This document shows, piece by piece, positions 1,583 through 19,806 of a stretch of DNA of 47,834 nucleotides; position 1 is the first letter of the stretch, and each line of letters starts with the position of its first letter. Made by a program: the position numbers and the translations under genes. The notes below the pieces were generated by a model that was not told the DNA's origin, ran no database searches, and worked only from the letters and a program-made list of their open reading frames with translations. The stretch is from Candidatus Acidiferrales bacterium. Lineage in GTDB: Bacteria > Acidobacteriota > Terriglobia > Acidiferrales > UBA7541. The stretch covers positions 1-47,834 of the forward strand of contig JASHRU010000427.1 of NCBI GenBank assembly GCA_030037225.1. Reading direction: 5' to 3'.

Positions 1583-3859
1583 ATGGCCGCTCCTCCAGCT
1601 CCGGCAGAAGCGTACGACGCGCCCCGCGCCGTCGCCAACAAGCGCGACAAGAGCGCGTTGCTTCGCGCCATCCGCATGGCCTTGGGCATTGAAAGCGACG
1701 CCATCCGCCGAAACACGCAGACCTTCAACCGGAACCGATACCGCGAAGCTGCCGCACTGCCCGATTACGAGGCGCTCAAAGATGAAGCGCGCGCAATCAA
1801 AGAGCGCGCCATCGGCCATCTGCCCGATCTCCTGATGACGCTGGAGACCGCTATCCGGGCGCGCGGCGGAAATTTCTATCTGGCCTCCACGGCCGCCGAT
1901 GCCTGCCGCTATATCCTGGGCGTCTGCCAGTCGCACGGCGCGAAGCTGGTAGTCAAGGGAAAGAGCATAACCAGCGAAGAGATTCGCTTGAATCACACCC
2001 TGGAGGGCGCTGGCATCGAGGTGGCAGAGAGCGATTTGGCCGAGTTTATCTTGCAAGTGGCCGACGAACAGCCTTCTCATAACGTCGCCCCCGCAATGCA
2101 CTACAGTACCGAGCGCATCTCCGCGCTTTTCAAGCGCAAGTTCTCCACCAGCGAACCACTCGACACCGGCGAGGAGCTAACCAAATTCGCGCGCGGCCGC
2201 CTCCGCCAGAAGTTTCTGAAAGCCGATGTGGGATTCACTGGAGCCAACCTCGTCGCTGCAGACACCGGCACCGTCATGCTCGTCGAGAGCGAGGGCAACA
2301 TTCGCATGTCCTCTTTGCTCCCGCCGGTGCACATCTCGCTGGCCGGCGTAGAAAAGGTGATCCCGGCGCAGTCTCAAATGGGTGTTTTCTTGGAGTTGTT
2401 GCCGCTGTCCTTCAACGGAAAGCTCACCTCGTACATCAGCTTCCTTCGCCCTCCGCTCGACGATCCGCCCTTCGCCCTTACGGGGCGCCCGCGCAAGAAG
2501 CGCGAGTTTCATCTCGTTCTCATTGACAACGGCCGCATGAAGCTGCGCCAGGATCCCGTCCTCCAGGAATCCCTCTACTGCATTCGCTGCAGCGCCTGCA
2601 TGAACTGTTGCGCGAACTTTCAGACCGTCGGCGGGCATGCCTTCGGCGGCGAGACCTATTGCGGGGGCATCGGCGGCGCGTGGGAAGCGGGTACCGGTAC
2701 GTTGGAAAACGCGCGGTTCTCCGATCTTTGCACTGGATGCTCGCGATGCGTCAACAATTGCCCCGTGCGCATCGACATTCCCTGGCTCAATGAAGTACTG
2801 CGCGACCGCTTGAACCGCTCGAGCGCGGGCTCTCCGCTGGCTTCTCTGCTCGGCATCGTCTCTTTCGTCCGCGGGGACGACCGCCGCGCCTCAGCGCAGA
2901 AGGTTTTCTTTGCCAACTATCACTGGTACGCCAAATGGGGCGCGCGAACTCGCGCCTTCGCGAACGGCGTGATTCGCTACGGCCCGGCGCGACGATTGAT
3001 GGAGTCGCTTGTCGGTGTGGACGTCCGCCGCGAAATTCCGCCGTTCCCCGCGCATCCGCTCGTCCGCGCCGCGCGCAATCTCCCCCCCCTCGCGCGCGCC
3101 GGGAAGCGCGCCAAGGTCGTGCTATTCCCCGATGTATACACAAACTATGGCCTGCCCCAACGCGGCATCGCCACAATTAAGGTTCTTCGCGCGCTGGGCG
3201 TTGATGTTGTGGTGAGCGACGCGATTCCGGAAGGCCGTGCGGCGCTCTCCCAGGGCATGATTGCCACCGCAAAAAAACACGCGCGCCATACTGCCGATGC
3301 GCTTCTGCCCTACCTCGACCAGGGACGTGACATCATCGTAATTGAGCCGAGCGCGTTGGCAATGTTTCGCCGCGACTACCGCCATCTGTTGGCCGACGCT
3401 GCTCGATTCGACTTGTTGCGCACGCGCACTTTTGATCCCGTGGAATACATCGCGCGCCTCTCCGCCAAATCGGGCCGCCCGGCACGCGATCTATTCGATC
3501 TGGCTCGCTCACCGGTCGGCTCGCGCCTCTTCGTTCACTCCCACTGCCAGCAGAAGACGCTCGGCTGCGCCCAACCCACCGAAGCGTTATTGCGTGAGAT
3601 CGGGTTCGACGTCGCCACCTCCTCGGTCGAGTGCTGCGGAATGGCGGGCAGTTTTGGATACAAGAAGGAATACTATGAGATGAGCATGGCTGTGGGAGAA
3701 GACCTCTTCGGGCAAGTGCGTGCTGCTGAAGCGCCCGACGCGGGCGGCGCGCGCGCCTTGGTTGCCAGCGGCACCTCCTGCACGGAACAGTTCCACGCTG
3801 GACTCGGCCGCCCAGTCCTGCACCCCATCGAACTTCTGGCCGCCATCTTGAAGTTGTAG
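1583..3859 (+). CDS. lutB: LutB-like LUD/4Fe-4S protein fused to a C-terminal LutA/GlpC-like CCG region
   Basis: 758 aa; LUD region (TGANLVAADTGTVMLVESEGN), ferredoxin motifs CIRCSACMNCC and CTGCSRCVNNCP, then HCQQKTLG...ECCGMAGSFGYKKEYYEMS...SGTSCTEQF (CCG domain). Confidence 0.85.
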   Translation: MAAPPAPAEAYDAPRAVANKRDKSALLRAIRMALGIESDAIRRNTQTFNRNRYREAAALPDYEALKDEARAIKERAIGHLPDLLMTLETAIRARGGNFYLASTAADACRYILGVCQSHGAKLVVKGKSITSEEIRLNHTLEGAGIEVAESDLAEFILQVADEQPSHNVAPAMHYSTERISALFKRKFSTSEPLDTGEELTKFARGRLRQKFLKADVGFTGANLVAADTGTVMLVESEGNIRMSSLLPPVHISLAGVEKVIPAQSQMGVFLELLPLSFNGKLTSYISFLRPPLDDPPFALTGRPRKKREFHLVLIDNGRMKLRQDPVLQESLYCIRCSACMNCCANFQTVGGHAFGGETYCGGIGGAWEAGTGTLENARFSDLCTGCSRCVNNCPVRIDIPWLNEVLRDRLNRSSAGSPLASLLGIVSFVRGDDRRASAQKVFFANYHWYAKWGARTRAFANGVIRYGPARRLMESLVGVDVRREIPPFPAHPLVRAARNLPPLARAGKRAKVVLFPDVYTNYGLPQRGIATIKVLRALGVDVVVSDAIPEGRAALSQGMIATAKKHARHTADALLPYLDQGRDIIVIEPSALAMFRRDYRHLLADAARFDLLRTRTFDPVEYIARLSAKSGRPARDLFDLARSPVGSRLFVHSHCQQKTLGCAQPTEALLREIGFDVATSSVECCGMAGSFGYKKEYYEMSMAVGEDLFGQVRAAEAPDAGGARALVASGTSCTEQFHAGLGRPVLHPIELLAAILKL

Positions 3860-3895
3860 CGCAGGTCCCGTCGTTGGGCGACCGCCGGCCTGCGC
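3859..3895. terminator. Inverted repeat between convergent lutB and glcF (possible terminator)
   Basis: GCGCAGG (3859-3865) and CCTGCGC (3889-3895), 7-bp arms, 23-nt loop, no T-tract; placed between convergent genes. Confidence 0.3.
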
Positions 3896-3919
3896 CCTGG
3901 TCTGAAGGGGAGCGCCGCC

Positions 3920-5254
3920 CTAGTTCATTCGCGGTGACGCGCCGCGTATAGAGGCATCCAGCAGCTCAACGGTGTGAAGGACAGGGATGCGTTTGCCGGC
4001 GCGCTCGAGCGCGGTGCGTAATTGCAGAAGGCAGCCTGGATTTCCGGAAGCAACCACGTCGGGCTTTAGTCCCAGAACGTTTTGCGCTTTTCGGTCGCCC
4101 AGTTCCGTCGCGGCTTCCGGCTGCACCAAATTGTAGATCCCCGCTGAGCCGCAGCAGACCGCGGCGTCAGGAATCTCCACGATGTCGATTTGCGGGATGC
4201 GCGAGAGCAGCGCGCGCGGTTGGCTGCGCACCCCCTGCGCGTGCTGCAGATGGCACGAGTCGTGATACGCCACGCGCATTGCGATCGGGTTGCGCGGGGC
4301 ACGCGGCTCGAGAGCGGCCAGAAATTCCGATACATCGCGGCATTTCGCGGAGAACACGCGCGCCCGGGTCGCGTATTTCGGATCATCGCGCAACAGATAG
4401 CCGTACTCCTTCATCGTCGAGCCGCAGCCCGCCGCATTCACGATTATGGTCTCCACGTTGGCGCGCTCGAACGCATCGATGGTCCGCCGAGCTAGCTCCT
4501 GTGCCCGTTCCTCTTCTCCCGCGTGTACCAAGAGCGCGCCGCAGCACGACTGATCCTTGGGTGTTATCACCTCGCATCCCTCTGCGGCCAGCACCCGCGC
4601 CGTGGCCGCGTTCACCTGCGGGAAGAACACGCTCTGCACGCACCCCGTGAGCATTCCCACGCGATGCCGCTGCGTTCCCTTTGCGCCCGTGACCTCCGCT
4701 ATGGCTTCGCCCTTCTCGAGCCGCGGCAGCAACGACTCCATCGAACGCAGCTTCTTGGGCAGCAAATTCAGCACGCCAGTCCTTCGTGCCAGCGCCTGAA
4801 TGCCCGACTTTTGGTAAAACTTCAGTGGCAGAAGGAATGCCCGCAGCCGCGCCGGAACTGTAAACGTACTGAAAATCATCTGCCGGTACGCGCGTTCGGC
4901 GACCGAACGCGGATAGTTCCGCTCAATCTGCGCCCGGGTGGCCTCGATCAATTTTCCATAGTCCACGCCCGAAGGGCACGCCGTCATGCACGCCATGCAC
5001 CCCAGGCAAGCGTCCAGGTGGCCCACCCATTTGTCGTTGAGCGTGGCCGCGCCATCGAGCGCCATCCTCATCAAGTAAATGCGCCCGCGCGGCGAATCCA
5101 TCTCTTCGTGCCACAGCACGTACGTCGGGCACACTGGCAGGCAGAAGCCGCAGTGCACGCATTTGTCCATCAACTCGCGCACGGGCGGATGGTGCGCGTC
5201 GAACGCACTCTTCGCGCCCGTCGCTGGCTGTCCGCCCTCTCCCACCGCGCCCAT
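3920..5254 (-). CDS. glcF: Glycolate oxidase iron-sulfur subunit (GlcF-like)
   Basis: Two 4Fe-4S motifs (CVHCGFCLPVCPTY, CLGCMACMTACPSG) and two CCG regions (QSCCGALLVH, AVCCGSAGIYNL). ATG at 5254 overlaps the TGA of glcE; the ORF-track start at 5356 is over-extended. Confidence 0.9.
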   Translation of the reverse strand: MGAVGEGGQPATGAKSAFDAHHPPVRELMDKCVHCGFCLPVCPTYVLWHEEMDSPRGRIYLMRMALDGAATLNDKWVGHLDACLGCMACMTACPSGVDYGKLIEATRAQIERNYPRSVAERAYRQMIFSTFTVPARLRAFLLPLKFYQKSGIQALARRTGVLNLLPKKLRSMESLLPRLEKGEAIAEVTGAKGTQRHRVGMLTGCVQSVFFPQVNAATARVLAAEGCEVITPKDQSCCGALLVHAGEEERAQELARRTIDAFERANVETIIVNAAGCGSTMKEYGYLLRDDPKYATRARVFSAKCRDVSEFLAALEPRAPRNPIAMRVAYHDSCHLQHAQGVRSQPRALLSRIPQIDIVEIPDAAVCCGSAGIYNLVQPEAATELGDRKAQNVLGLKPDVVASGNPGCLLQLRTALERAGKRIPVLHTVELLDASIRGASPRMN

Positions 5255-6558
5255 CAAATACCTCCCACAAAACGCCCGGGATTCAGCGTGCCGCGGGGGT
5301 CGAACTGTTGCTTCACCCGCAGCATTACAGGATACGCGTCGCCCGGGCTTCCCCACGCCTCGATGGCACCTGAGCCAGCCGGCCGATTGGCAATAAACAG
5401 CGAACCTGCGCCGCGCTCGAATTCAGCGCGCACGGATACGAGTGCCTCGCGAATGTCCGCCGGCTGTGCAGCTTCCAGCCGAACCCACCCGAGTCCGGTC
5501 CCTTGCGCCACGATCTTCCACTTCATCCCGCCCTTTTCCGCTGCCCTTCTCACTGTCTCGCACGCTGCCGCTATGCGCGAAGGCAGCACGCTGAATTTTG
5601 CTACCGCCGCTGTATCCGCCAGCGTCCACAGTTCCTGCCGGGCATTCCATACCTGGGCTGATTCTCCCGTCTCAACTGCAAATGCCGCCAGTTTTCTCGC
5701 CGTGGTGCATTGCGCTTCGATCCCCGCCGGTGTCCCATCGAAGCGTACGTCCACTTCGGGTTGCACATCGTGCCGCGCACGCGCCTGCAGGCCCGTGTGC
5801 GCCAGTGGCGAGCCCTGCAACTCCACGATTAGCCGGTTCGCATCGGACACGCTCCCCGCGCGAAACGTCAGCGTGCGCCCTTCCGCAGGCGGGAGCGGGT
5901 GCAACCGGAATGCCGCCCGTGTAATCACGCCCAGCGTCCCCAGTGCGCCGGTAACCAGTTTCGGCAGGTCGTAGCCCGCCACGTTCTTCACCACTTTTCC
6001 GCCGCTCTTGGCCAGCGTGCCATCCGGCAGAGCCAGCGTCACTCCGATGACTAAGTCGCGCAACCCGCCAAACCGCAGTCTCAGCGCGCCGCTGTCGTTC
6101 GTGGACAGAATGCCGCCGATGGTCGCGTTTTCCGGCCACAAGGGGTCAACGGCAAGGCGCTGGCCATGCTGCGCGAGAGCGGACTGGAGTTTTCCGAAGG
6201 TCACGCCGGCCTCCGCGACGACAGTGAGATCGGCCCAGGCGTGTTCGACGATACGATTCAGCCGTTTCGTGGAAAGGATCAAACGGAGCACTCTTGGCGC
6301 GTTGCCCCAGCCGAGCTTTGTGCCGCCCCCGCGCGGTGCCACGGCGATATCCGCTTCATTTGCCCAACGCAGGGCGGCGGCGAGCTGCATTTCATCCGCC
6401 GGCTCCGCCACTGTTTGTGACGCGACTCCCATCACCGCATCGGCCGGGCCTGCCGGACGCACGTAATTCGCTCCGATGAGGGCGTGGAGTTGCTCCCACG
6501 ACACCTCCGCCGTGGCTGCTGCCGTCCCTCCGGGCGAAGATGCTCCCGCTTGGTCCAT
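5254..6558 (-). CDS. glcE: Glycolate oxidase FAD-binding subunit (GlcE-like)
   Basis: FAD_binding_4 region (AVAPRGGGTKLGWGN...TIGGILSTNDSG...GKVVKNVAGYDLPKL). Start MDQAGASS at 6558 overlaps the end of glcD. Confidence 0.88.
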   Translation of the reverse strand: MDQAGASSPGGTAAATAEVSWEQLHALIGANYVRPAGPADAVMGVASQTVAEPADEMQLAAALRWANEADIAVAPRGGGTKLGWGNAPRVLRLILSTKRLNRIVEHAWADLTVVAEAGVTFGKLQSALAQHGQRLAVDPLWPENATIGGILSTNDSGALRLRFGGLRDLVIGVTLALPDGTLAKSGGKVVKNVAGYDLPKLVTGALGTLGVITRAAFRLHPLPPAEGRTLTFRAGSVSDANRLIVELQGSPLAHTGLQARARHDVQPEVDVRFDGTPAGIEAQCTTARKLAAFAVETGESAQVWNARQELWTLADTAAVAKFSVLPSRIAAACETVRRAAEKGGMKWKIVAQGTGLGWVRLEAAQPADIREALVSVRAEFERGAGSLFIANRPAGSGAIEAWGSPGDAYPVMLRVKQQFDPRGTLNPGRFVGGI

Positions 6559-8027
6559 CAAAATCGTTCCGCGATTCCCGCCGTTTCCAGCGGATGCGGC
6601 TCGTAACGCCCCGGCTTCTCGCCGCACAGTCGCGGCCGGGGAAAAACCTTCGAAGGGTTCGAGAGTTGCAGCGGATCAAACGCGCAGCGCACCAATTGCA
6701 TCGTCTCCAGATCCGGCTCGCTGAACATTTTCCCAATCATCTGCTTTTTCTCTTCACCCACGCCGTGCTCGCCCGTAATCGAGCCGCCCGCCTCAACGCA
6801 CAATTCCAAGATTCGCATGGCGAGCTCTTCCGCAGCGTGCTCCTGGCCCGGAACACTCCGGTCATAGAGCACCAGCGGGTGCAGATTGCCGTCACCCGCG
6901 TGAAAGACATTGGCCACTTTGATCCCTGCCGCCGCGCTCAGCCGCTCGATCTCCTCGAGGATTCGGGGCAGTGCGGTGCGCGGGATCACGCCATCTTGCA
7001 CGATGTAGTTCGGCGAAATGCGGCCCACGGCCGCAAATGCGGCCTTCCGCCCCTTCCAGAAGACGGCGCGTTCCGCTTCGCTCTGCGCCACACGGATTTC
7101 CGTGGCTCCGCACGAAAGACAAATCTCGTTCACCCTCTCCATCAGCGAGGCGACTTCCGCGCTTGGCCCATCCAGTTCCACCAGTAGCAGCCCGCCACAA
7201 TCAGGATAATGCGCGTGCACTGCCGCTTCTGCCGCCTGAATCGATAAATTGTCCATCATCTCGATCGCGGCCGGAACCATTCCGGCCGCGATGATTCCAC
7301 TTACCGCTGCGCCCGCCTCTCCGGTTGTCGCAAACGCAGCCAGCAGCGTCTGGATGCACTCCGGACGCTTCACGATCCGGAGGATTACTTTCGTGGTCAC
7401 GCCCAGCGTTCCCTCAGAACCGACAAAGACTCCCGGCAGGTCGTACCCTGGGGTGTCCAGCGTTCTTCCGCCCAAGTGGACCATCGCGCCATCCGGGAGC
7501 ACCACCTCGATTCCCAGAACATGTGTGGTGGTGAAGCCATATTTCAGGCAGTGGGCTCCGCCGGAATTCTCCGCCACGTTTCCGCCGATGCTGCACACCG
7601 ACTGCGAAGAGGGATCGGGCGCGTAGAAAAATCCGTGAGGCGATACCTTTCCGGTCACATCCAGGTTGATGACTCCCGGTTCCACCACTACGCGCTGGTT
7701 CGTCAGGTCCACCTCCAGAATCCGGTTCATCCGCGCTGTGCTGATCACGATTCCATGCTCCACCGGCAGCGCCCCTCCGCTCAATCCCGTGCCTGAACCC
7801 CGCGCTACAAACGGAATGCGTTCCCGGTGGCACACCCGCACGATGGCCTGCACCTGCTCTGCGGATTCAGGCAGCAGTACCGCCTCCGGCATCACCCGGA
7901 AGTTCGTCAGGCCGTCGCACTCGTAGGTATGTAATTCTTCGGCGGAAGTGATAAGTCCGCGCTCTCCGACTACAGCGCGGAATTCCTGTAGGGTGCGGGC
8001 GTCCACGTCTGACCCACCTTCGAACAC
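6558..8027 (-). CDS. glcD: FAD-linked oxidase, glycolate oxidase subunit GlcD-like (D-lactate dehydrogenase also possible)
   Basis: PFVARGSGTGLSGGALPVEHG, SIGGNVAENSGGAHCLKYGFT, HAGDGNLHP, GGSITGEHGVGEEK. Exact 5' end uncertain (GTG at 8027 or a few codons inside). Confidence 0.88.
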   Translation of the reverse strand: MFEGGSDVDARTLQEFRAVVGERGLITSAEELHTYECDGLTNFRVMPEAVLLPESAEQVQAIVRVCHRERIPFVARGSGTGLSGGALPVEHGIVISTARMNRILEVDLTNQRVVVEPGVINLDVTGKVSPHGFFYAPDPSSQSVCSIGGNVAENSGGAHCLKYGFTTTHVLGIEVVLPDGAMVHLGGRTLDTPGYDLPGVFVGSEGTLGVTTKVILRIVKRPECIQTLLAAFATTGEAGAAVSGIIAAGMVPAAIEMMDNLSIQAAEAAVHAHYPDCGGLLLVELDGPSAEVASLMERVNEICLSCGATEIRVAQSEAERAVFWKGRKAAFAAVGRISPNYIVQDGVIPRTALPRILEEIERLSAAAGIKVANVFHAGDGNLHPLVLYDRSVPGQEHAAEELAMRILELCVEAGGSITGEHGVGEEKKQMIGKMFSEPDLETMQLVRCAFDPLQLSNPSKVFPRPRLCGEKPGRYEPHPLETAGIAERF

Positions 8028-8183
8028 CGGAGAGGTGCGGGCGCAAATTCCTTCTCGAGGTCTACGGCCTCGGAGGAAGCCTCTCCTAAATCAGCGGGCC
8101 AAGTTACCGCAGCCCATCCGAACTGGCAGCGGCCCCGATCCGCTAGCCAGCAGCTTGTCCCAACCACTGACAAACGTCAAACC

Positions 8184-9980
8184 CTACGGAATGGCGCCCT
8201 GAAATACATAGGCCTGGAGGAAGGCGATCAGTCCGATCACCGCTGCCCCGGCCACGGAATGCCACCACACGGTGCGGAAGATCGGACCCAAGGCATGGGA
8301 TCGCTCATAGGCATCTTCGTAACAGGCGGCGCAGGCCACCATGATGGATTGAGGATCGATCATCTTCCCCATCACTCCCCCAGTGGAGTTGGTGGCGGAG
8401 ATCAGGACTTCGTTTAGGTGCAACTGCTGGGCAGTGATCCTTTGCAGGCTGCCGAACAGTGCGTTGGAAGCAGTGTCGGAGCCCGTGAGGAAGACGCCCA
8501 GCCAGCCCAGGTAGGCTGCGCAGATGGGGTACAGGGCTCCAGCGTGCGTGAATGCCAGACCAATCACCGCGTCGGTACCAGAGTAACGGGTGAGAAACCC
8601 GAGCCCCAGCACCTGCGCGATGACCAGGATCGGAATCACCAGACGATTGACGGTTCGCCGGACGGATTCGACCCACTGCGCGGCAGTCAGGCGCAGCGCG
8701 AGCCCGGATAGTAAAGCCGCGACGAACACGCCTGTCCCGGCCGCCGACAGCCAGTTGATGTTAAAGACGGCGGCCTCGGGCTTGGCATTTAGTGCTGCCA
8801 CGGGGGGCATGCGCTGGACTAGGTTGTGCAGAGCCGGCATCTGCCACTGTGGCAAGGAAAGCTTGCCTGAAAACACACCGCCGAGGATGGTGGTCTTAAA
8901 CGTTATCCCCGAAAAAAGGTTATTCAATTGGGCTTTCCATGCTGGAATGCCCCATACAGCGCAGCAGATGATGAGGATCGCCCAAGGCAACCAGGCATAC
9001 GCGGTCTGGCCGACGGTGTAGGGATACACCCACTCCTTCGCGTCCGTGGTTGCCGTCGCCGTACTCTTTCCGGATTTGGCCAGGGCCTCGCGCTCCGACC
9101 GCAGGAGGAATCGCGTCTTGGGGTGCCAGACAAAACGCAGGAATAGGGCGGTGCAAATGACGGAGAATACGCCCGCGACCACGTCGGTCATTAGGTGGAA
9201 GGACGCCGTGGAGGACGCGAGCCACTGCATTACGGCGAAGGAGAGACCCGCGCACAGCGCCCCCGGCCACACCTCCCAGATCTCCTTCCAGGTGCCTCCC
9301 TCCATCAGCACAAATGCGGCGACCAGCCAGAACGGGACCAGGATGGACACCCAGGGAAGTTGGTGCCCGACCATGGTCGACAGCTTAAGCTGGTCCAGGC
9401 CCGTCACGGTTGCGAGCATGACGATAGGAGTGCCGATGGCTCCATAGGCCACAGGAGCAGTGTTCGCCAGTAGGTTTAAGACGGCCGATTGGAAGGGAGG
9501 GAATCCCAGGCCAACCATAACGGCACCGGCGATGGCAACCGGCGTCCCGAATCCCGAGGTTCCCTCGATGATGGCACCGAAGGAGAATGCGATTAGCAAT
9601 ACTTGCAGGCGCCGGTCGAAGGATATATGGATGATCGATTCCTTCACGATCTCAAACTTGCCGGAGATAAGGGTCATGTTGTAAAGGAAGATGGCCCCAA
9701 CAATAATCCAGATGATCGCCAGGAACCCGGACAAACACCCGAAGCCAAAGGCCGAGAACGCCGACCTGAGAGGCATCCCATAGCCCAGGCAGGTGACGGC
9801 GAAAGCCGCCACGACACCGTAGAAAGCCGCATAGGGGGCGGAAATTCCAAGGTGTCTGGCGCCCTTTTTGTCCCGATGAGGGTGCAGAGCAATAAAGTAA
9901 AGCAGCACCAGTATCGGCACTCCCGCCAAAAGCGTCGACAGGAACACGTTGTTGAACGGATCGTAATTCTGTTGGTACAT
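8184..9980 (-). CDS. lctP: L-lactate permease, LctP/LldP family
   Basis: About 600 aa polytopic protein; IIEGTSGFGTPVAIAGAVMVGLGF and LTGSDTASNALFGSLQ...LISATNSTGGVMGKMIDPQSI match the family. ATG at 9980 (MYQQNYDPFNN) has a GAGG Shine-Dalgarno and is preferred to the GTG at 9995. Confidence 0.9.
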   Translation of the reverse strand: MYQQNYDPFNNVFLSTLLAGVPILVLLYFIALHPHRDKKGARHLGISAPYAAFYGVVAAFAVTCLGYGMPLRSAFSAFGFGCLSGFLAIIWIIVGAIFLYNMTLISGKFEIVKESIIHISFDRRLQVLLIAFSFGAIIEGTSGFGTPVAIAGAVMVGLGFPPFQSAVLNLLANTAPVAYGAIGTPIVMLATVTGLDQLKLSTMVGHQLPWVSILVPFWLVAAFVLMEGGTWKEIWEVWPGALCAGLSFAVMQWLASSTASFHLMTDVVAGVFSVICTALFLRFVWHPKTRFLLRSEREALAKSGKSTATATTDAKEWVYPYTVGQTAYAWLPWAILIICCAVWGIPAWKAQLNNLFSGITFKTTILGGVFSGKLSLPQWQMPALHNLVQRMPPVAALNAKPEAAVFNINWLSAAGTGVFVAALLSGLALRLTAAQWVESVRRTVNRLVIPILVIAQVLGLGFLTRYSGTDAVIGLAFTHAGALYPICAAYLGWLGVFLTGSDTASNALFGSLQRITAQQLHLNEVLISATNSTGGVMGKMIDPQSIMVACAACYEDAYERSHALGPIFRTVWWHSVAGAAVIGLIAFLQAYVFQGAIP

Positions 9981-9996
9981 GGGGCCTCGCTTCACG

Positions 9997-10026
9997 CATC
10001 AGCTGCGCGTGCCCACTGAGCTGATG
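9997..10026 (-). promoter_or_regulatory. Perfect 8-bp inverted repeat in the predicted lctP leader (operator or RNA hairpin)
   Basis: CATCAGCT (9997-10004), 14-nt spacer, AGCTGATG (10019-10026); overlaps an alternative GAGCT-GATG-AGCTC hairpin at 10018-10031. Confidence 0.5.
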
Positions 10027-11826: not shown

Positions 11827-13188
11827 CTAGCGGATCAGCGAACCTACCTTTTCCATCTGGTGGGAAAATGCTCCCGGCTCGTAATACGAGGGATTTTCGA
11901 GCTGCTGGAAGAGCACGTTGATGGCTGCGCGTACGTCGGCGGCATCGCCTGCCTTCGCTTCCTTGCTGTACGCAATGTAAAGCGAGTCGAGCGCCATGGC
12001 CGCCTGCTCGCCGCACCGTTCGCCGGAGTAGGAAATCTTCTCCGCGTCGCCGGTGATTGCCAGCATCACGCGCTTGGCCATCGCCGGGTCGTAGCTCATC
12101 GTCTGGAGCTTCGCCCCAAACTGCTGCGCCACCGGAGCTGCCGCGCCCGCCGCCGCGACCACAGCCGAGGGGTCCGGATTCAACTTGTTCATTTCCGCCT
12201 GGACCTTTGCCACCTTCGCCGCTAAGTCCTGTGCCGCCGCAGGATCTACAGCCTCTGCCAGATGCAGGAACACGATGTAGCGCGAGGCTTGCCACGGCGG
12301 ATCGCCCGCGCGCCGTGCCGAATAGCCGTGCTCCTGCCGCCAACTTTGCGCCGCCGGACCGAGCGCATGATGGCAGGCGAAGCAGTCGAGTTCTGAATAT
12401 TCCGGCCAAACTTTCCCTTTCGCGCGCCAGGAAACCCGCTCGAGCTCGGCACGCAGCTGTTCGGCTTGGCCAGTCCCCCATTGCCTCATTCCCAGCATCG
12501 CGGCGTCCTCGGCCGGTTTCCCAGCCTCGCTTTCCCGGGGAACCTTCCAGTGGAGCGGCATCGCGGCCTGAAAAGAATCGAGTTCGAAGTACAGGTCCGG
12601 ATGCCCGCCCGCGATCATCTCGTGGTCCACAAACTGATCGGGAGTGCCCAGATGGCAGGTGAGGCATTTATCGGTCCGGTGGGTCAGGTCGCGCAGGTCC
12701 ACCATCCCCGCTGCTACTGACTGTTCATGCGTCCAACCCCGCGTCGTGTGTCCGCCCAGCCACCCTCCCGCCGGTCCGTGGCAGTTCTCGCAGGACACGC
12801 CTTCGCTCAGTTCAAATGTGCGTGCGCGTTTTTCCGCCGGCACCGAAAGCGAATGACAAACCAGACATTTCGGGGATTCTTCGGCCTTGGTGTTCAATTT
12901 GAGGATGCGCGCCATGCGCTCGCCCACTTCACCGGTCAGCGCCAGGTAGGCGCGGCTGTGCTTGTCCTTCACAACCCAGGTGCTGTATTCCGTTTGCAGG
13001 ATCCGGCTGTCTCCCCGCGGGCGGATGCTCCCGTGGCAGCTGGTGGCGCTGCAGGAACCGGGCCCAGAATACTGACCCATAGCTTCGGCAGGCATTGCCT
13101 TGGCAGGTGGACTTCCGCCCGGCCCCGCAAAGACTGCCGGGGCAAATAGCATCAGAGCTATGATTGTCGCGGGACGCAGGGGGCGCAC
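11827..13188 (-). CDS. Secreted multiheme cytochrome c, cytochrome c554-like
   Basis: Signal peptide (TIIALMLFAPAVFA); heme motifs CLVCH, CENCH, CLTCH, CFACH plus CSATSCH (CX4CH). Confidence 0.85.
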   Translation of the reverse strand: MRPLRPATIIALMLFAPAVFAGPGGSPPAKAMPAEAMGQYSGPGSCSATSCHGSIRPRGDSRILQTEYSTWVVKDKHSRAYLALTGEVGERMARILKLNTKAEESPKCLVCHSLSVPAEKRARTFELSEGVSCENCHGPAGGWLGGHTTRGWTHEQSVAAGMVDLRDLTHRTDKCLTCHLGTPDQFVDHEMIAGGHPDLYFELDSFQAAMPLHWKVPRESEAGKPAEDAAMLGMRQWGTGQAEQLRAELERVSWRAKGKVWPEYSELDCFACHHALGPAAQSWRQEHGYSARRAGDPPWQASRYIVFLHLAEAVDPAAAQDLAAKVAKVQAEMNKLNPDPSAVVAAAGAAAPVAQQFGAKLQTMSYDPAMAKRVMLAITGDAEKISYSGERCGEQAAMALDSLYIAYSKEAKAGDAADVRAAINVLFQQLENPSYYEPGAFSHQMEKVGSLIR

Positions 13189-13269
13189 TCGTTAGTTTCC
13201 GCTTCCTGATGCCGCGGCGCCCGGACTCGGCCCCCGGGCTGCAGCCACAACCGGCCTCAGGTGGTTGTG

Positions 13270-13298
13270 CTTATACCTCCTGCCCGACCGAGTGTCAA
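13270..13298 (-). promoter_or_regulatory. Candidate sigma70-type promoter for the c554-like cytochrome
   Basis: Minus strand TTGACA (13298-13293), 17-bp spacer, TATAAG (13275-13270); -35 matches consensus 6/6. Confidence 0.65.
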
Positions 13299-13333
13299 TG
13301 GCGGAACGGGCGGGGGTTGCGTTCAGCGTCCCC

Positions 13334-13380
13334 GTGAGAACAACCATCCACGACGCCGATGCGGACGATGCCGTTCTCAC
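13334..13380. promoter_or_regulatory. Inverted repeat between divergent promoters (possible operator)
   Basis: GTGAGAAC (13334-13341) and GTTCTCAC (13373-13380), perfect 8-bp arms, 31-bp spacer, lying between the two -35 boxes. Confidence 0.4.
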
Positions 13381-13403
13381 CAGAAACTCTCGCTCCATCC
13401 CTA

Positions 13404-13432
13404 TGGACATCCGGCGGGTGAATCGCTACTAT
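13404..13432 (+). promoter_or_regulatory. Candidate sigma70-type promoter for the nuoEF-like operon
   Basis: TGGACA (13404-13409), 17-bp spacer, TACTAT (13427-13432). Confidence 0.45.
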
Positions 13433-13515
13433 CCTCGCCCAGCGGGACCGCCAGGATTGATTGCACGAACGGCGGCTCGAGCCCGGCGAGTCCACAGGGC
13501 CCAAAGAGTGCGACG

Positions 13516-15240
13516 GTGATCTGGGACGATCTTCGCGCCATCCAAAGCCGGCATGGATACCTTCCGGCCGAGGAATTGCACGCACTCTCGCAGCATACGG
13601 GAACTCCGCTTTACCAGATCCACAGCGTCGCCAGCTTTTATCCCCATTTCCGCCTCGCGCCGCCGCCCAAAGCGGACGTGCGCGTTTGCATGGACATGTC
13701 TTGCAATCTCAACGGGGCCTGCGAGCTCCGCCAGGCCCTGGAGCGCCGCTACGCGGGCATGGGCCCCTCGGAAGTCACCGTTCGCGAGGTTTCCTGCCTG
13801 GGCCGTTGCGACCACGCTCCCGCGGTGACCGTCAACGACCAGATCTTCTCCTCAATGTCCGAGCCCACTGTGGACCTGCTGATTACCCGCGCCCTCGGCG
13901 GCGAGGCCTTGGAGGAACCGCATCCGCCCCATACCGAGGCTACCTGCAAGTCGGATCCGTATCCTCCTGACAAACGCTATGGTGCCCTGCGCTGGCTGCT
14001 CAAATCGAAAGACGTGGACGGCGTGCTCGCCTCGCTCAAAGCAGCCGACCTTCGCGGCATGGGTGGCGCCGGCTTCTCCACGGAGATGAAGTGGTCGCTC
14101 GTCCGCAGAATGGACTCGCCCGAGAAATACATTGTCTGCAACGCGGACGAAAGCGAGCCGGGGACCATCAAAGACCGCTTCATCATCCAGCACCTGGCCT
14201 ATCTCGTGGCCGAAGGGATGGCAATTGCCGGCATCTGTACCGGAGCGAAAAAAGGAATTTTTTATATTCGCCACGAGTACGGCCATCAAGAACACATCAT
14301 GAAGGAGGAGGTCGAACGCGCCTACCACCAGGGCTTGCTCGGTCAGAACATTCAGGGCTCGGGCATCGACTTCGACCTCGAAGTGTTCGTCAGCCCAGGC
14401 GGCTACATCTGCGGCGAGGAAAGCGCGCTCATTGAAGCCATCGAAGGCCACCGCGCGGAGCCGCGCAACAAGCCCCCCTTCCCCGGACAGGCCGGCTTGT
14501 GGCAAAAGCCAACCGTGGTAAACAACGTCGAGACCTTTGCCAACGTCCCACAAATTCTCGTCCGTGGCGTGGATTGGTTCAAATCCGCCGGCCTCGCGGG
14601 CACCAGCGGCCTCAAATTCGTCGGCATAAGCGGACACGTGGTCAAGCCCGGCGTGTTTGAAATTCCCATGGGCACCCCGGCTTCCGAAGTCATTTTCCGT
14701 CTCGCGGGGGGCATCCGCGGCGGCAAGAAGATGAAGGGCTTCGCTCCCTCCGGGCCCTCTTCCGGCTATTTGCCCGCCTCAATGGCCGACATCCGGCTCG
14801 ATTTCAAGACGCTCGCCGCGGCAGGTTCCATGCTCGGTTCCGGCGCCATGGTCATTTGCGACCAGGACACGTGCATGCTCGACATGGCGCTCAACTCCGT
14901 GGCCTTCTTCCGTAACGAGTCCTGCGGTAAGTGCGTTCCTTGCCGTGTCGGCTCCCAAAAAATGGTCGCGCTGCTCCACCGCTGGACTCAGGGCGGTCTT
15001 TCCGAGAAGCAATTCACCGCGGATCGCGGCCTCATTGACGAGCTCTCGAACGCCATGGGACTGGCATCCATCTGCGGACTAGGCCAGATTGTCCCGGCGC
15101 CCATCAACTCCGTTTTGAAATATTTTGAAGACGAAGTGAGAGAGCACGCGCTCCAGGGCACTTGCCCATCCGGCATTTGCCATCTGCCGGGAGCGCCTGC
15201 CAAGCGGGCCGCCAGTCAGCGGGTGGGGATCAATCCATGA
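13516..15240 (+). CDS. NuoE-NuoF fusion (NADH-binding flavoprotein with thioredoxin-like 2Fe-2S N-terminus)
   Basis: NuoE part: RAIQSRHGYLPAEEL...VASFYPHFRL...CMDMSC...CLGRC; NuoF part: CNADESEPGTIKDR, GGYICGEESALIEAIEG, ESCGKCVPCRVGSQK...SICGLGQ. GTG at 13516 is the only canonical start after the predicted + promoter; the ORF-track start at 13261 is probably over-extended. Confidence 0.85.
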   Translation: MIWDDLRAIQSRHGYLPAEELHALSQHTGTPLYQIHSVASFYPHFRLAPPPKADVRVCMDMSCNLNGACELRQALERRYAGMGPSEVTVREVSCLGRCDHAPAVTVNDQIFSSMSEPTVDLLITRALGGEALEEPHPPHTEATCKSDPYPPDKRYGALRWLLKSKDVDGVLASLKAADLRGMGGAGFSTEMKWSLVRRMDSPEKYIVCNADESEPGTIKDRFIIQHLAYLVAEGMAIAGICTGAKKGIFYIRHEYGHQEHIMKEEVERAYHQGLLGQNIQGSGIDFDLEVFVSPGGYICGEESALIEAIEGHRAEPRNKPPFPGQAGLWQKPTVVNNVETFANVPQILVRGVDWFKSAGLAGTSGLKFVGISGHVVKPGVFEIPMGTPASEVIFRLAGGIRGGKKMKGFAPSGPSSGYLPASMADIRLDFKTLAAAGSMLGSGAMVICDQDTCMLDMALNSVAFFRNESCGKCVPCRVGSQKMVALLHRWTQGGLSEKQFTADRGLIDELSNAMGLASICGLGQIVPAPINSVLKYFEDEVREHALQGTCPSGICHLPGAPAKRAASQRVGINP

Positions 15241-17408
15241 GCACCCTGTTCGGAACCTTTCTCGGCCCGATGGTGCAGCTCACCATCGATGGCAAAGAGG
15301 TTGCCGCGCCGGCCAGCGCCACCATCTTTGACGCCGCGCGCGCTCACGGCATCCCCATACCCACGCTCTGTCACATGCAGAACGAAACCCCGGTCGGAGT
15401 CTGCCGCCTGTGCGTGGTCGAGGCCGGCGGCCGCGTTCTCACTGCTTCCTGTGTCCGCCAGGTAGAAAACGGAATGAAGGTGGTCACCAATTCCGACCGC
15501 GTTTTGGCCGCTCGCCGTACCCTGCTCGAAATTCTCATGTCCGACCACCCCTCGCCCTGCGCCCGCGAGCGGCAATCGGGCGATTGCGAACTGGAGATGC
15601 AGGCCCGCAATCACGGCATCACCGAAATTCGCTATCCCAAACGCTATTTCACGCGCCCGAAGGACGATTCCTCGCTGGCCATCGCTGTGGACCACGAGGC
15701 CTGCATCCTTTGCGACCGCTGCATCCGCGGCTGCAACGAAATCCGCCAGAACCTCGTGCTCGGCCGCATGGGCAAAGGCGCGGGCGCGGGCGTGGCTTTT
15801 GACCTCAATACTCCCATGGGCGAGTCCTCCTGCATCTCCTGCGGTGAATGCATGGTGAGCTGCCCCACCGGCGCGCTCACCAACAAGCGCATCGCTGGAA
15901 CCGAGCTGCCCATTCCCGCCGGCGCGGTTCCCGCTGAACCGGAAGACCTGCTCGAGCTCCCCGTCTTTAAGGGCGTATCCGGTACCTTCCTCGAGATGAA
16001 TAAGGGGGCCATCGTCAAACGCAGCTTCCATCCGGGCGACGTAATCTGCCGCGAGGGCGATTTCGGATCTACCGCTTTCTACATCGCAGAAGGCAAGGCC
16101 GCCGTCTCGATTTCCACCCCCATGGCGCACGTGAAGACACACGGCGGCGCCGGCGGATGGTTCAGCCGCCTCACTTCGAGCCTCATCGGCCGCGACTCCG
16201 ACGCGCGCGAGGAAGAGACCTCGCAAGGGTACATTCCCATCGACGCCTCGGTCGACCTCGCGTACAGCAACCCCGTCGCCGAGTTGGGGCCCGGCGATCT
16301 GTTCGGCGAAATGACCTGCATGAGCTTTTATCCGCGTTCCGCGACGGTCAAGGCCCTCACCGATTGCACCATGTACGAGATGTTGCGGAACGTGCTCGAT
16401 ATCCTGCTCAAGAACAAGTCCTTCCGCGCACGCCTTGGCAAGGAGTACAAGCGCCGCGCGCTCGAAACACATCTTCGCGGCGTGCCCATGTTCTCTGAGC
16501 TCTCCCCCGACTTCGTCGAGCGGCTGATGGACAACGTCAAGCTTATCCGCCTCTCTCCCGGGCAGGTGATTTGCAAGCAAGGCGAGCCGGCCGACAGCTT
16601 CTATCTTGTCCGCATCGGGTTCGTAAAGGTCACGGAAACGTATCCCGGCGGCGAGCTCGTCATCGCTTATCTTTCCCGCGGTGACTCTTTCGGCGAAATC
16701 GGACTTCTTGGAGCGGGCGCCCGCACGGCCACCTGCACGGCGCTCGACCACGTCGAACTGGTCAAGATCTCGGCCGATGACTTCAACGCAATGGTCGATC
16801 AGTTCCCCGGCGTGCGCCGCGGTCTCCAGGCCCTTGCGGATGAGCGCCAGCGGCAGAACGCCGAACGCATGGCCGCCCTGGGAACCATCTCACTCGATTC
16901 CTTCCTCGGCCAGGGCTTGATGGAAGCCCAGAGTTTGCTCGTCCTCGATTTGGCGCGCTGCACCCGTTGCGACGCGTGCGTCCGCGCGTGCGCCGACGCT
17001 CACGACGGCATCACCCGCCTGGTTCGCGAAGGACAGCGTTTCGACCGCTACCTCGTGGCCACATCCTGCCGCCATTGCAAGGATCCGCTCTGCATGGTCG
17101 GCTGCCCGGTCGGCTCCATACGCCGCCGCAATTCACTCGAAGTCATCATCGAGGATTGGTGCATCGGCTGCGGCCTCTGCGCCCGCAATTGCCCTTACGG
17201 CAACATCAACTTGCATCCCTTCCAGGTGATGGCAGACGACCCCGACAATCCCGGCCGCCGCATCGCCATGGTCAAGCAGAAAGCGACTTCGTGCGACCTA
17301 TGCACCGAGCATGCCGAGCCCAGTTGCGTTTATGCCTGCCCCCACGACGCCGCGCATCGCGTGGACCCGCGCAAGTTCTTCTCCGAACTCCTGGGAACAA
17401 AAGTGTGA
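15237..17408 (+). CDS. Fusion protein: NuoG/HoxU-like 2Fe-2S plus 2x4Fe-4S, two cyclic-nucleotide-binding domains, DmsB-like 4x4Fe-4S domain
   Basis: N-term PTLCHMQNETPVGVCRLCVVEAGGRVLTASC; CILCDRCIRGC and CISCGECMVSCP; two CNB phosphate-binding cassettes (FGEMTCMSFYPRSAT, FGEIGLLGAGARTAT); C-term CTRCDACVRAC, CRHCKDPLCMVGCP, CIGCGLCARNCPYG, CDLCTEHAEPSCVYACP. ATGA overlap with nuoEF. Confidence 0.88.
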   Translation: MSTLFGTFLGPMVQLTIDGKEVAAPASATIFDAARAHGIPIPTLCHMQNETPVGVCRLCVVEAGGRVLTASCVRQVENGMKVVTNSDRVLAARRTLLEILMSDHPSPCARERQSGDCELEMQARNHGITEIRYPKRYFTRPKDDSSLAIAVDHEACILCDRCIRGCNEIRQNLVLGRMGKGAGAGVAFDLNTPMGESSCISCGECMVSCPTGALTNKRIAGTELPIPAGAVPAEPEDLLELPVFKGVSGTFLEMNKGAIVKRSFHPGDVICREGDFGSTAFYIAEGKAAVSISTPMAHVKTHGGAGGWFSRLTSSLIGRDSDAREEETSQGYIPIDASVDLAYSNPVAELGPGDLFGEMTCMSFYPRSATVKALTDCTMYEMLRNVLDILLKNKSFRARLGKEYKRRALETHLRGVPMFSELSPDFVERLMDNVKLIRLSPGQVICKQGEPADSFYLVRIGFVKVTETYPGGELVIAYLSRGDSFGEIGLLGAGARTATCTALDHVELVKISADDFNAMVDQFPGVRRGLQALADERQRQNAERMAALGTISLDSFLGQGLMEAQSLLVLDLARCTRCDACVRACADAHDGITRLVREGQRFDRYLVATSCRHCKDPLCMVGCPVGSIRRRNSLEVIIEDWCIGCGLCARNCPYGNINLHPFQVMADDPDNPGRRIAMVKQKATSCDLCTEHAEPSCVYACPHDAAHRVDPRKFFSELLGTKV

Positions 17409-17414
17409 GGCCGC

Positions 17415-18344
17415 ATGCGCATTGACGAAACGCATCGCGTTTGGCTCGTCGCCTCCATAGTCATCCTGGGCGCGGCGACTGCCGTCTACGTCATCTACGC
17501 GCTCGCTGCACCCCACGGGCCCAGCGGCGGCTCTCCCATCGGTCTCGTCTTTGGTTTCACGGGATTTGGCTTCATGATTTACGCGGGGCTGCTCGGCGCC
17601 CGGAAAAAAGTACCCATCATGCGGCTCGGCCGCGCGCAGGGCTGGATGCGCGGCCACCTATGGCTCGGCCTGCTTGCACTCCCACTGATCCTGTTCCACG
17701 GCGGTTTCCATTTCGGCGGCCTGCTCACCTCAATTCTCCTGTGGCTGCTCATCATCACGGTCCTCAGTGGCGTTTTCGGCGCGATTCTCCAGCACTACCT
17801 GCCCACCGTCATCCTCGAACGGGTCCCCATGGAGACCATCTACGACGAGATTGACCGCGTTCGCGATCAGCTCCGCGTCGAAGCCGAGGGCTTCGTCGCC
17901 GATCTTTGCGGCGGTGGCGTTCCGGAGGCGGAAGCCATGGCACTCGTTCCGGAAGGTGGCATTCGCGCCGGCGGCTTTACCGCCATGCGCCCCCGCGGCG
18001 GCGGTGGTGTTCAGTACGGGCTCACGGAAGCGGAAGTCGAGCCGGTGCGCTCGTTCTTTCAGACGGAAATGCTCCCCTTCCTGCTCGAGCCAAGTGCCAA
18101 AAGCTCCCGCCTCGGCGACGACACCCGCGCAGTGGCCGCATTCACCAAGCTACGCATGCTCGCTCCTGCCGCCGCCCATCCGGTGATCGCCAACCTCGAG
18201 AATTTGTGTGAAGAAGAGCGGCAACTCACCCGCCAGGCGCGCCTGCACAAGATGCTGCATACCTGGCTGCTCGTGCATATTCCGCTCTCATTGGCTTTGT
18301 TGTTGCTCAGCGTGTTTCACGCCGTCATCGCTCTGCGGTACTGA
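17415..18344 (+). CDS. Five-TM membrane protein, predicted diheme cytochrome b-like subunit
   Basis: Hydrophobic helices; H-X13-H in GHLWLGLLALPLILFH and in HIPLSLALLLLSVFH, the spacing expected for two bis-His b hemes between two helices; 6-bp gap from upstream gene. Confidence 0.65.
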   Translation: MRIDETHRVWLVASIVILGAATAVYVIYALAAPHGPSGGSPIGLVFGFTGFGFMIYAGLLGARKKVPIMRLGRAQGWMRGHLWLGLLALPLILFHGGFHFGGLLTSILLWLLIITVLSGVFGAILQHYLPTVILERVPMETIYDEIDRVRDQLRVEAEGFVADLCGGGVPEAEAMALVPEGGIRAGGFTAMRPRGGGGVQYGLTEAEVEPVRSFFQTEMLPFLLEPSAKSSRLGDDTRAVAAFTKLRMLAPAAAHPVIANLENLCEEERQLTRQARLHKMLHTWLLVHIPLSLALLLLSVFHAVIALRY

Positions 18345-18411
18345 CGGCAGTATTCGGCAACGAAGGCGGTCGATAGGGCGAGCGTTAGTTTAGGGACGGA
18401 GGAGCATAGGC

Positions 18412-19806
18412 GTGCCGCGTGTCCGCACAACCAAGGCTCTCGCGCAGCGCATTGATCTGAACTACTTCAAGCGGCCTATCCCTCTTCGCCGCTGGCGCTT
18501 CTGGCTCTGCCTGCTCATCCCCCTCGGCTGTTTCCTATGGATCGGCTGGAAGCTGGCAGGCCGCGACTTCCAGCCCTATTCCAGCGGGCCGCTTTCCGCC
18601 GGCCACGTCCTGCTCACTCGCGACTGCACCACCTGCCATGTGCCCGAAAAAAACGCCGTGTTCACCGAGCACGCCAGCGATCAGGCCTGTAAGAACTGCC
18701 ACGACGGCCCCATTCATCAGCTCGCTCAGGCGCGCGAGCCCGAGTGCGGCTCCTGCCACGTCGAGCACCGCGGTGGCGCTCGCCTGATCGCGACAAGCAA
18801 TCAGAGCTGTGCCCAATGCCACGCCAATCTGGAGACCAAGCCCGGTTCCTCCACCAAGTACATCAAGACGATTTCCAGTTTCAACACCGACCACCCCGAA
18901 ATGGCTGTTTTCCGCGGCGCCAATCCTCGGGATCCCGTCACCATCCGCGTCAATCACTTTGTCCACATGAAGAAGAACCTGCTGGGCCCGCACGGTTCCG
19001 TCCAACTGGAATGCAAGGATTGCCACCGCCAGCCAGCCTCGCGCGAGCCCTGGCTTTTCGGCTCCGCTGAAGCCCTGCCGGTCTCCGCACCTGTGGCCAC
19101 CCCTGCAGCCGGGATGAAGGCCGACCTATATGCCCCCGATCCCGGGCTCGCGCTCATGTCCATGCCGAAATTCGCCGAATCCTGCTCCGCCTGCCACCTG
19201 CTCCAGTTCGACAAGCGCTTTTCCGAGCAGGTTCCGCACGATAAGCCGGATGTGGTCCACGCCTTTGTCGTAAAGAAGTTCGAGGCCTATATTGCCGCGC
19301 ATCCCGCCGAATTGCGTGAGCAGCCGGAGGAAGAGCGTCGCCTGCCGAACCGTCCCGCTCCACCCGCAGCGCGCGTCGTCACTCCCGCCCAATGGGTAGC
19401 CGAGCGCACGAAAGAGGCTGAGACGCTCCTTTGGGGAAAGACGTGCCGCCAGTGCCACTCCATCACCATCACGGAGGGCGCGCCGCTGCCGAAGGTTGCA
19501 GACGCGAACTACACCCTGCACTGGCTCCCGCACGCCCGCTTCGACCACGATGCGCATCGGGGATTCGCCTGCGCGAGCTGCCATCCCAACGCGCTCACCA
19601 GCCAGGACTCGGCCGAACTCCTGCTTCCCAAGCTCGCTACATGCAAGGACTGCCATGCGCCTGGCCCGTCTCACGTCGAAGCGCGCTGCTTCGAGTGCCA
19701 CGCGTATCACGATTGGTCAAAGCGCAAGGGGATCACGCCGACGTTTGTTCCACGGGCTCTGCGCGCGCAGGCTGTGGATCTCATCCCGAAGCCCGCCGGC
19801 CAGTAG
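18412..19806 (+). CDS. Membrane-anchored decaheme cytochrome c (c3/c7-like)
   Basis: N-terminal TM (FWLCLLIPLGCFLWIGWKLAG) and ten CxxCH: CTTCH, CKNCH, CGSCH, CAQCH, CKDCH, CSACH, CRQCH, CASCH, CKDCH, CFECH. GTG start preceded by GGAGGAG. Confidence 0.88.
   Translation: MPRVRTTKALAQRIDLNYFKRPIPLRRWRFWLCLLIPLGCFLWIGWKLAGRDFQPYSSGPLSAGHVLLTRDCTTCHVPEKNAVFTEHASDQACKNCHDGPIHQLAQAREPECGSCHVEHRGGARLIATSNQSCAQCHANLETKPGSSTKYIKTISSFNTDHPEMAVFRGANPRDPVTIRVNHFVHMKKNLLGPHGSVQLECKDCHRQPASREPWLFGSAEALPVSAPVATPAAGMKADLYAPDPGLALMSMPKFAESCSACHLLQFDKRFSEQVPHDKPDVVHAFVVKKFEAYIAAHPAELREQPEEERRLPNRPAPPAARVVTPAQWVAERTKEAETLLWGKTCRQCHSITITEGAPLPKVADANYTLHWLPHARFDHDAHRGFACASCHPNALTSQDSAELLLPKLATCKDCHAPGPSHVEARCFECHAYHDWSKRKGITPTFVPRALRAQAVDLIPKPAGQ

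Follow-up and report, generated by a model that had tools for sequence, protein, structure and literature searches.

Why does an acidobacterium encode an NADH-oxidising enzyme, cyclic-nucleotide-binding (CNB) domains, a candidate heme b membrane protein and a decaheme cytochrome c side by side? The question is raised by positions 11827-19806 of contig JASHRU010000427.1 (assembly GCA_030037225.1, a 'Candidatus Acidiferrales' bacterium), whose 47,834 nucleotides are called here the window and which is one of the 432 contigs (C420) of a draft genome of 4.04 Mb. A sequence-only reading had placed there four tightly packed plus-strand genes (B to E) and, divergent from them, a gene for a secreted c554-like cytochrome (A), and had interpreted them as a chain from NADH to periplasmic c hemes gated by a cyclic nucleotide. 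All five genes were found where that reading placed them, and the layout was borne out by coordinates, domains and its recurrence in most of 78 loci. We think it rather probable that B to E form an inner-membrane complex moving electrons from NADH to periplasmic hemes, perhaps free of quinone, with a coupling that cyclic nucleotides would set. Gene order, domain content, ligand conservation, co-occurrence and proximity to cyclases are the observations behind this proposal.

GTDB species genomes were scanned with C, which gave the 78 loci (numbered L; genomes are numbered G). Nearly all belong to Acidobacteriota, mostly Terriglobia, with a few in Planctomycetota, and identity in C runs from 42 to 98%, the closest relative being a 'Candidatus Acidiferrales' metagenome-assembled genome (98%). 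Counting only loci that are testable given their contig extent, D and E follow C in 65/70, B precedes C in 61/65 and A is divergent in 58/65, so the gene set co-occurs across genomes in a conserved order. In the window, an ATGA overlap joins the B stop codon to the C start (ATG 15237), and gaps of only 6 bp (C-D) and 67 bp (D-E) separate the remaining genes, which fits one transcript. The Planctomycete locus L102 carries the five genes reordered as D-E-A-B-C, and a set that is reordered and still complete argues for a functional unit. Within the phylum the core is patchy (9/396 sampled genomes at a strict threshold); the named strain Granulicella aggregans M8UP14 (L089) carries the module. Copies from bins labelled Betaproteobacteria (L095) and Rhodanobacteraceae (L085) nest among acidobacterial ones in the core tree; these bins are probably mislabelled and were not counted as horizontal transfer to Beta- or Gammaproteobacteria.

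The cytosolic end of the putative chain is formed by B and C. B (13516..15240, plus strand) is, as first read, a NuoE-NuoF fusion, with a thioredoxin-like 2Fe-2S domain, a flavin mononucleotide (FMN)/NADH domain and a 4Fe-4S domain (PF01257, E 1.6e-26; PF01512, 9e-41; PF10589, 9e-24). It carries the motifs GMGGAGF and NADESEPGT, and its Cys143/148/179/183 and Cys555/558/561 are invariant in 61 sequences. The open reading frame opens at 13261; because homologues begin at about GTG 13516, this codon is the likely start. C (15237..17408, plus strand) fuses a HoxU/NuoG-like N-terminus to two CNB domains and a ferredoxin, and its Pfam matches comprise PF13510 Fer2, NuoG-type clusters, cNMP_binding and four Fer4 motifs. 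The N-terminal domain (15270..15896; one 2Fe-2S, one His-ligated 4Fe-4S and two further 4Fe-4S clusters) matches HydA1/HoxU/NuoG (E 1e-44) and, over residues 38-245, NF005745 HoxU (E 1.9e-53). The NuoG-type clusters expected in this part are present, but the domain resembles the N-termini of HoxU and HydA more closely than a full NuoG. In the tandem CNB domains (16029..16841; PF00027, E 6e-40), the phosphate-binding cassette residues Glu383/Arg392 and Glu512/Arg521 are 99% conserved in 71 sequences, and the profile matches cGMP-dependent kinases (E 1e-32); these domains most likely bind cyclic AMP or GMP (cAMP or cGMP). All cluster Cys of C are at least 97% conserved in the same sequences, and the C-terminal DmsB/HydN-like ferredoxin domain (16938..17366) has 16 of them, corresponding to four 4Fe-4S clusters. 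In L107, an apparently separate protein with three CNB domains was rejected as such, since it is the front part of a C whose reading frame is split in two.

D (17415..18344, plus strand) is the candidate for carrying electrons across the membrane. It has five hydrophobic helices, a cytosolic helical domain of about 150 residues and two spaced histidine pairs, H81-X13-H95 and H288-X13-H302. H81, H95 and H288 are conserved in 100% and H302 in 99% of 73 sequences, and all four are invariant in alignment A1. The pairs persist in homologues of about 30% identity, including those in which D is fused to the CNB and iron-sulfur (FeS) part (L183, L184), and heme binding is predicted from this bis-His spacing, which was noticed initially. 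In the AlphaFold model (pLDDT 84), residues 74-95 form one helix and residues 252-308 another, longer one. The positive-inside rule would have the two H-X13-H helices run from cytoplasm to periplasm; H81/H288 would then ligate an inner and H95/H302 an outer heme b. An unclassified sister family of D, with two H-X13-H pairs in 15/15 loci (L016-L024, L027-L032), has a sub-threshold match to DUF4405 (E 2e-5), and its genes mostly precede one for an N-anchored Fer4 and pyridine-nucleotide flavoprotein; these loci would represent a second acidobacterial b-heme system.

On the periplasmic side, heme motifs were counted and found conserved in both cytochromes. E (18412..19806, plus strand) is anchored in the inner membrane by an N-terminal transmembrane helix and has 10 CXXCH motifs, each at least 97% conserved in 67 sequences, together with 10 further conserved His that make bis-His ligation of its hemes plausible; it matches QrcA weakly. 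A (11827..13188, minus strand, 453 aa; PF13435, E 2.4e-9) has a signal peptide and one CX4CH (residue 46) plus four CXXCH motifs, that is, five hemes, each motif at least 98% conserved in 65 sequences. It resembles the c554 structure 1bvb (E 4e-4).

Distant acidobacterial versions tell more about the two ends of the chain. L153 and L155 combine a CNB-FeS protein with a D-like protein and a decaheme cytochrome, while a CNB-CNB-FeS protein is fused to D in L150/L184 and L158/L183. The fused protein of L183 and L184 adjoins a protein of 1056-1091 aa (L184:5774-8941; L183:5713-8985) that is built, in order, of an FHA domain, a transmembrane helix, seven c hemes, a second transmembrane helix, Fer4 and an NAD(P)H-type pyridine-nucleotide flavoprotein, possibly a transmembrane conduit in one polypeptide. 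Judged by domain content, the distant versions keep the NAD(P)H end through an enzyme that is non-homologous to NuoEF. Such a swap points to pyridine nucleotide and periplasmic heme as the two ends of the system, and we regard it as our strongest argument.

The associated gene set reaches beyond the window, to cyclases and to a multiheme and barrel pair, and the further cytochrome in it suggests how electrons could go on to the outer membrane. In 36/78 loci there is a gene for a secreted multiheme cytochrome of about 1250 aa (MHC) with nine to ten CXXCH motifs and LVIVD repeats, often adjoining genes for a barrel protein of about 730 aa that ends in Phe and for an HbpS-like protein. MHC occurs in 9/9 C-positive genomes as against 37/387 others (Fisher 2e-9). 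Among close relatives MHC accompanies D in 12/13, and only a 79%-complete genome departs from this. In the host genome contig C154 ends with MHC and contig C265 starts with a broken barrel gene; the contig orientation would allow them to be adjacent. The neighbouring barrel was modelled with 18 strands (pLDDT 62; best fold match AlgE). Among named families MHC comes nearest to ExtM of a selenite/tellurite operon, with a match (E 3e-23) that stays under the curated cut-off, and no relatives were found in the PDB. From this association, an outer-membrane step likely follows the module, the conduit probably feeding an outer-membrane cytochrome, and extracellular electron transfer is plausible. 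An MHC and barrel pair also occurs in L149 (G145; two contigs, 3.7 Mb) with no C-D-E nearby. The HbpS-like protein, of a heme-degrading family and with two such domains, stands beside the module in 23 loci (e.g. L073:5603-7174). In L160 (2360-3991), which also has A-like, MHC and barrel genes alongside, an NDH-2 carries a fused CNB domain. This fusion was rejected as a general replacement of NuoEF, since apart from G179 only G046 and G125 gave matches that reach the CNB domain, the others stopping short of it.

Control by cyclic nucleotides is suggested by the surroundings of the module as well as by C itself. Class III cyclases of CHASE2 or FHA-GAF architecture lie near the module in 19/78 loci, in at least six placements. 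Seven module-bearing genomes searched have exactly one class III cyclase, and in five of them (G046, G058, G179, G386, G450) it is at most 15 kb from C or MHC, for which random placement gives a chance of about 4e-10 if shared ancestry is ignored; in the same family (f11), many genomes that lack the module have no class III cyclase. A class II cAMP phosphodiesterase stands beside the FHA-GAF-cyclase in L184, and L102 has a cyclase and, directly upstream of D, a CNB-Ser/Thr kinase fusion (2353-3618). The conserved phosphate-binding cassettes and the cyclases beside the module give independent support to the cyclic-nucleotide link. No CRP-type operator (TGTGA-N6-TCACA) was found near the divergent promoter, and its count in the window is below chance.

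Taken together, it is tempting to propose the following path. The FMN of B would take a hydride from NADH and hand on single electrons via an N3-like cluster to the HoxU-like domain of C, from which they would reach its C-terminal four-cluster ferredoxin. The ferredoxin would reduce the heme b of D on the cytoplasmic side (H81/H288), and electrons would cross from there to the one on the periplasmic side (H95/H302), then pass through the ten hemes of E to the pentaheme A and to MHC. This last partner is encoded beside the putative 18-strand outer-membrane barrel in relatives and on other contigs here. In C, the tandem CNB domains separate the two FeS domains; their most likely ligand, cAMP or cGMP from a class III cyclase, would set the coupling of the two halves. 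The most likely direction would be oxidation of NADH, with electrons delivered to the periplasm or the exterior with no quinone involved; the conduit may in this way bypass the quinone pool. Only tentatively do we extend the proposal to a quinone-independent wire that leads from the NADH pool through both membranes and whose conductance is switched by cAMP or cGMP on the FeS subunit.

Several observations weigh against this proposal. The NuoEF/NuoG-N part is missing in otherwise intact clusters (L091, L093, L094, L106, L124, L126, L127). In L091, L093, L094, L106 and genomes G179, G310 and G415, D-E, mostly with A too, accompany a short C that starts at the first CNB domain, with no NuoEF beside it; NADH is consequently not obligatory for the family nor the sole possible entry. 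D has no Pfam or NCBIfam family above cut-off and no significant relative in the PDB by sequence, profile or fold (fold threshold E<=0.001), so its hemes b rest on the conserved His. The distant CNB homologue of L183 lacks a recognisable phosphate cassette. No cyclase lies in the window, the host's four being on other contigs, so that for this genome the cyclic-nucleotide link is drawn from its relatives and from the CNB motifs. The co-occurrence statistics take no account of shared ancestry, and MHC is also present in 37 genomes without C. The chain first proposed is upheld in part: the conserved operon, the cofactor ligands, the four-His pattern, the non-homologous swap at the NAD(P)H end and the lack of a hydrogenase partner support the conduit well. 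The NuoEF-less forms were not accepted as one ancestral group, as in the core tree they branch close to the base but within more than one group, and L087, L097 and L099, which looked like further short forms, are merely contig ends.

Among the alternatives, the one that survives best departs from the proposed conduit in the last step only. The module could be an NADH-dependent periplasmic reductase in which A or MHC reduces a soluble substrate, for instance an N- or Se-oxyanion, as the c554-like nature of A and the likeness of MHC to ExtM would suggest. However, MHC often stands beside a porin-like outer-membrane barrel and no catalytic heme was identified, and we take this ending as possible rather than expected.

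A variant NADH:quinone oxidoreductase, in which B-C-D reduce menaquinone at D while E and A are part of a periplasmic chain of their own and share only the transcript, seems unlikely to us. Membrane b proteins with two hemes often exchange electrons with quinone. The inner-membrane entries to extracellular electron transfer that have been discovered in bacteria to date fall into three families (CbcL/MtrH/MtoC, CymA and ImcH), described as quinol oxidases/quinone reductases and all quinone-linked (PMC6295460). Against such a separation, E adjoins D in 65 of the 70 testable loci, E-like decahemes follow D-like genes even in distant classes (L153 and L155), and a single polypeptide of L183/L184 holds both the multiheme and the NAD(P)H flavoprotein.

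Reverse flow is more doubtful still. Periplasmic or extracellular electrons would enter via A/E and D and make NADH or, in the NuoEF-less form, reduce another cytosolic partner, which those clusters would suit; NuoEF-type modules and multihemes work reversibly. However, the recurrent neighbours include no recognisable enzyme of carbon fixation or lithotrophy, and the reaction would be uphill from most donors in a cluster without an ion-coupled subunit. Least probable is a sensor with little flux, whose chain reads the redox state while CNB, FHA and cyclase parts convert it to a second-messenger signal: cyclase, FHA, GAF, CNB-kinase and phosphodiesterase genes do cluster around the module, but the fifteen c hemes of A and E, the nine to ten of MHC and a full FMN/FeS chain exceed what a sensor needs, and CNB is usually an input, not an output, domain.

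The inner-membrane conduit that we favour shares parts with several known systems. B and the first 210 or so residues of C contain the same set of FMN, 2Fe-2S and 4Fe-4S cofactors as HoxEFU, NuoEFG or HydBC with the HydA N-terminus, but the module has no hydrogenase, formate dehydrogenase or complex I core next to it, and C runs on into CNB-CNB-ferredoxin. Neither the NuoB/C/D core nor the NuoAHJKLMN arm is among the recurrent neighbours, and the host's own NuoC-D-EF of complex I is on contig C52, away from the module. Motifs of hydrogenase catalytic subunits (NiFe L1/L2 and FeFe) gave only two out-of-context matches in the 78 loci, neither in a credible frame, and no such subunit stands among the recurrent neighbours; formate dehydrogenase catalytic subunits were likewise absent from the recurrent neighbour clusters, from which alone they were judged, no dedicated search being made. 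Within these limits, the initial remark that no proton-pumping, hydrogenase or formate dehydrogenase partner is nearby holds for the relatives too.

CbcL/MtrH/MtoC, CymA and ImcH likewise place a multiheme c at the inner membrane to feed periplasmic cytochromes, and CbcL also has two putative hemes b. Here, in contrast, an NADH/FeS enzyme forms the cytosolic side, and D, of no named family, is separate from E; the hallmark of CbcL/MtrH/MtoC, a HydC/FdnI-like b domain fused to multiheme c, is absent from D. The Hmc, Tmc, Qrc and DsrMKJOP complexes of sulfate reducers have a cytosolic FeS protein, a membrane subunit and a periplasmic multiheme c in one operon, as the module does; however, no NrfD-like or DsrM-like subunit was recognised in it, and the NADH part and CNB domains are extra. 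An outer-membrane barrel gene beside a large multiheme gene, as in relatives of the module, recalls MtrCAB and Pcc. The porins that sheathe the periplasmic multiheme in those systems have 20-26 strands; the model of the barrel beside MHC (pLDDT 62) has 18 and is AlgE-like. The multiheme bears LVIVD repeats, and no Mtr or Pcc family match was found. As in Rnf, including its multiheme c forms, where the NuoF-like RnfC is tied to membrane electron transfer, a NuoF-type protein is present; the recurrent neighbours showed no recognisable Rnf membrane subunit. On the features tested, the module is neither complex I nor a Hox-type hydrogenase, and it is no CbcL or Hmc-type complex either. The open-access literature on CNB with NuoF and multihemes, on LVIVD with multihemes and on acidobacterial variants yielded no description of it, nor any already characterised complex of the same layout.

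If the proposal is true, a link from NADH to the periplasm with no obvious quinone step would give Acidobacteriota, which are abundant soil bacteria, a different way of redox balancing when oxygen or other acceptors are short. CNB domains in an FeS subunit with cyclases nearby would moreover mean that a second messenger controls respiration directly and not through transcription. The presence of the module in Granulicella aggregans M8UP14 makes these ideas open to testing. Absent from the recurrent neighbours at other module loci, a lactate/glycolate utilisation set adjoins the module at positions 1583-10000 of the window and comprises a LUD-domain protein, a CCG/Fer4 protein, two FAD-linked oxidases and a lactate permease.

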